Positions 53,828-53,910 of a stretch of DNA of 64,000 nucleotides are shown here, piece by piece. Numbering within the stretch: the first letter of the stretch is position 1; every line of letters begins with the position of its first letter. The DNA lies in assembly GCA_001048675.1 (NCBI GenBank), contig CCKK01000002.1, positions 372,001 through 436,000 on the forward strand, read 5' to 3'. The notes beneath the pieces were generated by a model. The model saw only the letters and a list, made by a program, of their open reading frames with translations, did not search any database and was not told where the DNA came from. This DNA comes from Vibrio diabolicus. GTDB taxonomy: Bacteria; Pseudomonadota; Gammaproteobacteria; Enterobacterales; Vibrionaceae. The translations under genes were made by a program, and so were the position numbers.

Positions 53828-53910
53828 ATAAATATCTACTTATTCAGCAGTAATTGAGCTTGAACTCGAATAAATGTGGTTCGTTTTTTATCAGCTACTT
53901 TGCAGTAGTT
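53828..53910 (-). CRISPR. Private (homing) guide RNA unit: two atypical repeats and a guaC-directed spacer
   Basis: Read on the minus strand. The upstream atypical repeat (53910-53887) keeps TACTGC and GTAGCTGATAA, but its loop is four bases shorter. The spacer (53886-53855) matches guaC 47769-47800 beside a CC PAM. The downstream repeat (53854-53828) has stem CTGCT-GAATA-AGTAG, where one G-C pair of the main repeat (CTGCC-GAATA-GGTAG) is replaced by T-A, a compensatory change that keeps the Cas6 hairpin. It is separated from the main array and has its own -10 element, as is known for homing guides of I-F3 elements. Confidence 0.9.

Follow-up and report, generated by a model that had tools for sequence, protein, structure and literature searches.

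A single-spacer CRISPR unit in a type I-F3a transposon of Vibrio diabolicus is likely the guide that placed the element beside guaC

The DNA analysed here, a stretch of 64,000 nucleotides from Vibrio diabolicus (the window), contains guaC followed by the genes of a Tn7-like element in the order tnsA, tnsB, tnsC, helicase, 185-aa gene, xre, atypical CRISPR unit, typical array, cas6, cas7, cas8/5 and tniQ (Table 1). The atypical unit belongs to a type I-F3a CRISPR-associated Tn7-like transposon (CAST) of 44.8 kb. The element combines tnsA, tnsB, tnsC and tniQ (tnsC and tniQ being frameshifted) with a cas8/5 fusion, cas7f and cas6f; no cas1-3 was found among the scanned genes of the window, and the cargo outside it was partly scanned. 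It has TGT ends with three TnsB repeats each, ACAAG lies on both sides, and the attachment site guaC is matched by the element's own guide, the element end being the 48th base after the protospacer. The attachment gene and the layout suggest the I-F3a branch.

Table 1. Features of the element and its attachment site (positions of the window unless a locus is named).
Feature	Position	Strand	Remarks
guaC (GMP reductase), intact attachment gene	46785..47828	+	NCBIfam PRK05096
Protospacer, 3' end of guaC	47769..47800	+	CC PAM 47767-47768
Target duplication ACAAG	left 47843..47847; right L112:9613-9617		right copy outside window
Element end by guaC	47848..47914	+	three TnsB-type repeats (47856, 47876, 47899)
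tnsA	47975..48664	+	PF08722
tnsB	48642..50315	+	Mu-transpos_C, rve; PADLOC TnsB
tnsC	50478..51242	+	TniB, AAA; frameshifted beside A-run near 51170-51180
Helicase-like accessory gene	51573..52961	-	ResIII
185-aa accessory gene	52955..53512	-	no Pfam family
Palindrome, second copy	53540..53551		between xre and 185-aa gene
Xre-type regulator (HTH_3), 68 aa	53606..53812	+	domain match
Atypical repeat 2	53833..53854	-	70% to typical repeat; fold -4.6 kcal/mol, z -3.13
Spacer of atypical unit (32 nt), likely homing guide for guaC	53855..53886	-	24/32 to guaC; counterparts in 19/22 relatives
Atypical repeat 1	53887..53908	-	5-bp stem, GCAA loop, 8-nt handle; fold -4.7 kcal/mol
Palindrome GGATTATAGTCC, predicted Xre operator	53915..53926		over predicted -10 of guide
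Typical array	53996..54083	-	repeat 54056-54083, spacer 54024-54055, repeat 53996-54023
cas6f	54213..54812	-	profile matches
cas7f	54815..55861	-	profile matches
cas8f/cas5f fusion	55867..57768	-	PADLOC Cas85f, E 7e-297
tniQ	57769..58954	-	parts 58412-58954 and 57769-58419; frameshift near 58412-58425
Cargo	58955..64000		element continues to window-equivalent 92612

The right end of the element (window-equivalent 92612; G000:C2:464612, L112:9612) lies outside the window and was located in DNA fetched from beyond it. It carries three TnsB-type repeats in inverse orientation (L112:9510-9604). An inverted end pair TGTAACAAG/CTTGTTACA at 47839 and 59031 was rejected: the flanks differ, and no TnsB repeats occur near 59031. 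Past the right ACAAG, a second and diverged copy of the end was observed (L112:9613-9760, window-equivalent 92613-92760), which reaches the expected start of tnsA. It is likely the fossil of an older element that had been inserted at the same base.

Since the right end lies beyond the window, the genes at 59765-64000 and onward are cargo. A small metabolic set (59765-64482) comprises an isochorismatase, a decarboxylase-like protein and an EamA transporter. Cargo proteins that are encoded outside the window but inside the element (L111:9575-12233; L112:91-1725 and 6319-9316) match the defence models PD-Lambda-1 (two proteins), PDC-S06 and LeoA/LeoBC. With queries one base off the typical spacer, no phage sequence was matched; on three Piscirickettsia plasmids, a MipZ-named gene was matched weakly over 23 nt (E 0.2). 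The helicase (ResIII) and the 185-aa gene, which occupy 51573-53512 between tnsC and xre, recur in seven of eight named relatives, and the 185-aa gene shares the Xre-type palindrome region.

The atypical unit spans 53908-53833 on the minus strand and contains one spacer. The fold of repeat 1 has a z value of -1.95 and was equalled by 10 of 200 shuffles; its handle CTGATAAA (53894-53887), the core of which is conserved, directly precedes the spacer. The element possesses both an Xre regulator gene and a palindrome of the form GGA(C/T)TATA(A/G)TCC at two sites, by which the attachment guide is predicted to be controlled. Of 18 elements, 15 have an Xre-type palindrome ahead of the guide. In a promoter scan, a promoter-like site overlapped the palindrome copy at 53540, and the guide was assigned no full promoter. 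For VPA1391, an atypical array and an Xre gene have been described in the same arrangement (PMC12150760). Judged from the regulator gene and the shared palindrome, repression of the guide by Xre may be inferred.

In a preliminary description, the spacer (53886-53855, minus strand) had been proposed to be the homing guide of an I-F3 transposon for guaC. Upon re-alignment, the match to guaC 47769-47800 again amounted to 24 of 32 positions, and the CC PAM was found at the place given. Mismatches occupy spacer positions 3, 6, 9, 15, 18, 21, 29 and 30; seven of these eight are third positions of codons, and position 29 is a second position. The spacer indeed encodes nearly the guaC peptide (KRTTFIRVQA versus KRTTFIRVQE). 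The first base of the element, 47848 (TGTTGAAAC...; end TGTTGAAACAACC), is the 48th after the protospacer. Since 47 bases intervene, the previously stated distance of 48 is right; 19 bases separate the guaC stop from the element end. Apart from the spacer itself, the guaC protospacer is the best place for it in the window, and the next two sites match at 21 of 32 positions and lack CC. Equally good matches with a CC PAM, which would have spoken against the proposal, are absent from the rest of the full window; a search of the whole genome with at most three mismatches and two positions free yielded the guide alone.

In order to follow the guide in related elements, 329 Vibrionaceae genomes were searched with Cas7f. 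A match was found in 116, and the closest 22 loci (own locus included, E up to 7e-81) were inspected. A guaC guide in a single-spacer unit with diverged repeats is present in 19 of these 22 I-F3 loci; none was recognised in G058 and G064, and G233 carries another spacer. All 19 guides share the same reading phase, with spacer position 1 on codon position 1, and each agrees with the guaC of its own host at 22-27 of 32 positions. Of 418 first and second codon positions, 13 are mismatched, compared with 130 of 190 third positions. Within the third positions, mismatches number 73 of 95 at every sixth position of the spacer and 57 of 95 elsewhere. The PAM is CT in nine, CC in five, CA in three and CG in two cases, so that the first C alone is constant. 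Of the 19 genomes with a guide, 18 have the element end 47-51 bp beyond the protospacer; for G215, G146 and G272, which contain a second TGT at 41, the TGT followed by the terminal repeat was taken as the end. In the remaining genome, that of V. atypicus (L004), the element lies 67 bp from a protospacer in a guaC fragment, and the full-length guaC is empty. This fragment (L004:17985-18236) is an 84-codon 3' part of guaC and agrees at 220 of 252 bases with the full gene, which sits on another contig without an element. With a counterpart unit in 19 of 22 loci, the regular distance of the element end and the 5-bp target duplication, the identification of the guide in the preliminary description proved correct.

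A search for Cas7 in 394 genomes of the order (E 1e-50) revealed four genomes; L185 and L186 come from outside the family, and a handle-pattern search detected no guide in either. No Cas7 relative was found in a plasmid collection at E 1e-60. Five elements (G279, G315, G215, G272 and G300; L006, L092, L093, L104 and L103) have a very different TnsC (44-45% to that of the window) and ends of the TGTAAAA type, and their cas genes and guaC guides resemble those of the other elements. For example, the guides of G279 and G252 are identical, yet their TnsC proteins are 45% and 81% identical to that of the window. The transposase thus seems to have been exchanged in these five elements. The spacer of G233 resembles a yciA-like gene beside its element at 19 of 32 positions without gaps, another site in the locus reaching 21; the gene matches the YciA model with E 3e-15, which is below the model cut-off. 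In this yciA-like gene (L101:2763-3248, antisense), as in guaC (sense), every third spacer position (3, 6, 9 and so on) corresponds to the third letter of a codon, so that the flipped base at each sixth position is a wobble base. The phase at the yciA-like target was worked out by hand from coordinates, and for two targets such an agreement has a chance of 1 in 9.

The spacer of the single-spacer atypical unit is likely a homing guide for guaC, which probably steered the 44.8-kb I-F3a transposon to its present spot and placed it 47 bp past the target site; we assign this reading a probability of roughly 90%. Starting from the observed match, PAM, spacing, ends, duplication, genes and a guide common to related elements, the following course of transcription, processing, repression and targeting can be inferred. 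A promoter that overlaps the Xre palindrome would produce the guide RNA when the repressor is scarce, as upon entry into a new cell. Cas6 would trim this RNA to a crRNA with an 8-nt handle and the predicted start CUGAUAAA. TniQ-Cascade would then locate guaC at a C-N PAM, where the guide would pair via the two conserved leading letters of each codon, with mismatches at the third letter being tolerated. Finally, TnsC and then TnsAB would insert the element beyond the guaC stop and leave 5-bp duplications. I-F3a CASTs at guaC and their tolerance of wobble mismatches have been described (PMC11406308, PMC6360697). Against homing stand the eight mismatches, position 29 included, and the three of 22 relatives that lack a recognised guaC guide. 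In a related system, full mismatching of the segment 25-29 is reported to have abolished transposition (PMC12774636).

Could a degenerate repeat remnant merely resemble guaC by chance? As a control, the best spacer match was scored in each of 200 random 64-kb sequences (order-1 Markov). If any PAM was allowed, the best match averaged 20.4 and the maximum of 24 equalled the observed value; with a CC PAM required, the mean was 18.3 and the maximum 21. The element is moreover inserted at the expected distance, and the conservation of the guide in 19 of 22 loci already refutes a chance likeness, to which we give practically no weight. An origin of the spacer by recent copying from the guaC of a donor species, with the mismatches reflecting the change of host since then, is improbable as well, even though the encoded peptide is kept. 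The window guide matches the other 18 guides at 24-31 of 32 positions, despite Cas7 identities to the window that go as low as 45-46% among guide-bearing elements; it differs by one base from the guide common to G144 and G272 and by eight bases from its own guaC. This argues for inheritance of the guide with the transposon and against recent copying. Mean similarities (of 32) are 27.5 between guides, 27.5 between guaC genes and 24.5 between guides and their own targets, so that guaC genes are more similar to each other than to the guides. The comparison with many guaC genes that the preliminary description had suggested for finding a donor was made with 92 sequences, 51 from Vibrionaceae and 41 from other families of the order (L176, which lacks the motif, was left out). 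Scattered genes, the best being those of G337 and G275, match the window guide at up to 28 of 32 positions. However, three of the 92, including these two and together the closest, came from a spacer-like search, and the best of the other 89 reaches 26. The match of the guides to their own host does slightly exceed that to other hosts (24.47 versus 23.93, reached by 0.35% of 20,000 permutations), an excess that could also be obtained from the relatedness of elements and hosts. Hence, copying from a related guaC, as had been proposed, is possible for the remote past only. The address written in the guide travels with the transposon lineage, and one guide could fit many hosts because the matches are concentrated on first and second codon letters.

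The present state of the element has to be considered separately from its arrival. tnsC leaves its frame next to an A-run after about codon 230, and the split of tniQ falls in its cysteine-rich region. Full-length TniQ and TnsC, which a mobile CAST requires, are thus lacking in this assembly, and with both genes frameshifted this copy would no longer home. It is likely immobile, unless the shifts are sequence errors or recoded. That both genes function today, either because the shifts are sequencing errors or because slippage at the A-runs recodes them, is the less favoured view, although it retains a substantial share of our belief: both shifts adjoin runs of A, and intact near-identical proteins exist for both. 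For TnsC, P0002 (328 aa, 8 members) is 99% identical in an alignment spanning 92% of the query; for TniQ, P0070 (394 aa, 24 members) agrees with the first part in the window at 179 of 180 residues and with the second at 212 of 213. The existence of these proteins indicates that the shifts are either recent or assembly errors. The relatives do not share the splits. tnsC is open beyond the shift in 21 of 21 relatives, one of which (G070) stops at 304 aa, and tniQ is open at the lesion site (60 residues compared) in all 18 other elements listed, a comparison that leaves out G129, G300 and G064. There is therefore no conserved recoding, and conserved programmed frameshifting was rejected as unlikely. 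The assembly is rated 99.99% complete, which argues against many such errors. In the same genome, no second tniQ and no second tnsC were found, a weak 30% ATPase match being the only hit besides tnsC. If the shifts are real, Cascade could still form, without TniQ, and the guide has outlived its machine; the mismatch at position 29, which among the 19 guides is unique to the window, is in keeping with relaxed selection and no proof of it. The broken genes and the 99% identical intact proteins would then represent a natural before/after pair for the immobilisation of a CAST. Given cas genes and a guide of intact appearance next to broken tniQ and tnsC, the unit might instead serve to repress guaC by CRISPR interference. 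This use is very improbable: the target lies at the extreme 3' end of guaC, a complete R-loop reportedly requires TniQ (PMC11406308), and the relatives listed have kept tniQ open.

For the homing guide, the letters that do not pair deserve attention. The guide letters A, C and A at positions 3, 9 and 21 are kept in 19, 19 and 16 of the 19 guides, and these positions mismatch the guaC of the own host in 17, 16 and 17 of 19 cases. To count substitutions, a cas7 tree was used that comprises 18 elements (G272, with its cas7 in two frames, was left out). No change was found at positions 3 and 9, one each at 21 and 27, and five at 15; every-sixth positions of the guide changed 2, 5, 2, 3 and 6 times, and positions outside third letters 0.45 times on average. 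For comparison, four-fold sites of cas7 (n=27) changed 2-7 times with a mean of 4.7, and other third positions of cas7 (n=58) 2.8 times on average. For non-coding bases next to the unit, most counts were 5-8, a value inflated by indels due to the ungapped comparison. The mismatches at 3, 9 and 21 are therefore conserved across related elements, which is unexpected under mere tolerance; selection is possible, and the signal rests on a handful of positions. That the guaC homing guide has been selected to mismatch is a tentative and rather unlikely proposition. Compared to random synonymous recodings, the consensus guide lies in the 3.8% tail over 32 nt. With the comparison restricted to the shared coding part (nt 1-27), it lies at 11.7% when scored on the 19 hosts and at 25% on the pool of 92 guaC sequences, and a guide worse than random recoding is accordingly not significant. 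Avoidance of matching is thus unsupported, and only the conservation of the letters stands. A literature search by title and beginning of abstract, with most subscription papers outside its range, returned none on conserved or selected guide mismatches; tolerance of mismatches is reported to help the crRNA stay private (PMC11406308). If selection did act, the fixed mismatches could block the licensing of self-cleavage by a host I-F1 system or throttle homing, and the conserved first and second codon letters would keep the guide universal. The conserved mismatches offer a concrete, testable set of positions for such a privacy or throttling idea.

Homing of I-F3a elements to guaC has been published (PMC11406308), and the element is a further example, in which the likely way of a CAST to its site can be followed at single-base resolution. 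The present analysis adds the boundaries of the element with the duplication, a likely earlier use of this insertion base by an older element, descent of the guide together with the transposon, the conservation of mismatched letters and a probably lost mobility. The closest counterparts are I-F3a elements at guaC/IMPDH, for example Tn6677 of V. cholerae HE-45 (PMC6360697, PMC11406308; name from PMC12150760). As described there, they share with the present element guaC as attachment gene, TnsABC together with tniQ-cas8/5-cas7-cas6, TGT ends with TnsB repeats and an attachment guide apart from the typical array. Unlike in these, tniQ and tnsC are frameshifted in the assembly analysed here, and a fossil left end of an older element adjoins the right duplication. 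VpaCAST of V. parahaemolyticus VpaI-7, also I-F3a (PMC12150760, PMC12774636), likewise has one spacer between atypical repeats, an Xre gene beside the unit and a control site (predicted in the present element) shared with a divergent neighbour gene, but according to these accounts its attachment gene is yciA. Atypical repeats also distinguish the attachment guide in type I-F3b CASTs, which are described as occupying ffs and rsmJ with hyperactive private atypical guides; these elements belong to another branch and use other attachment sites (PMC11406308).
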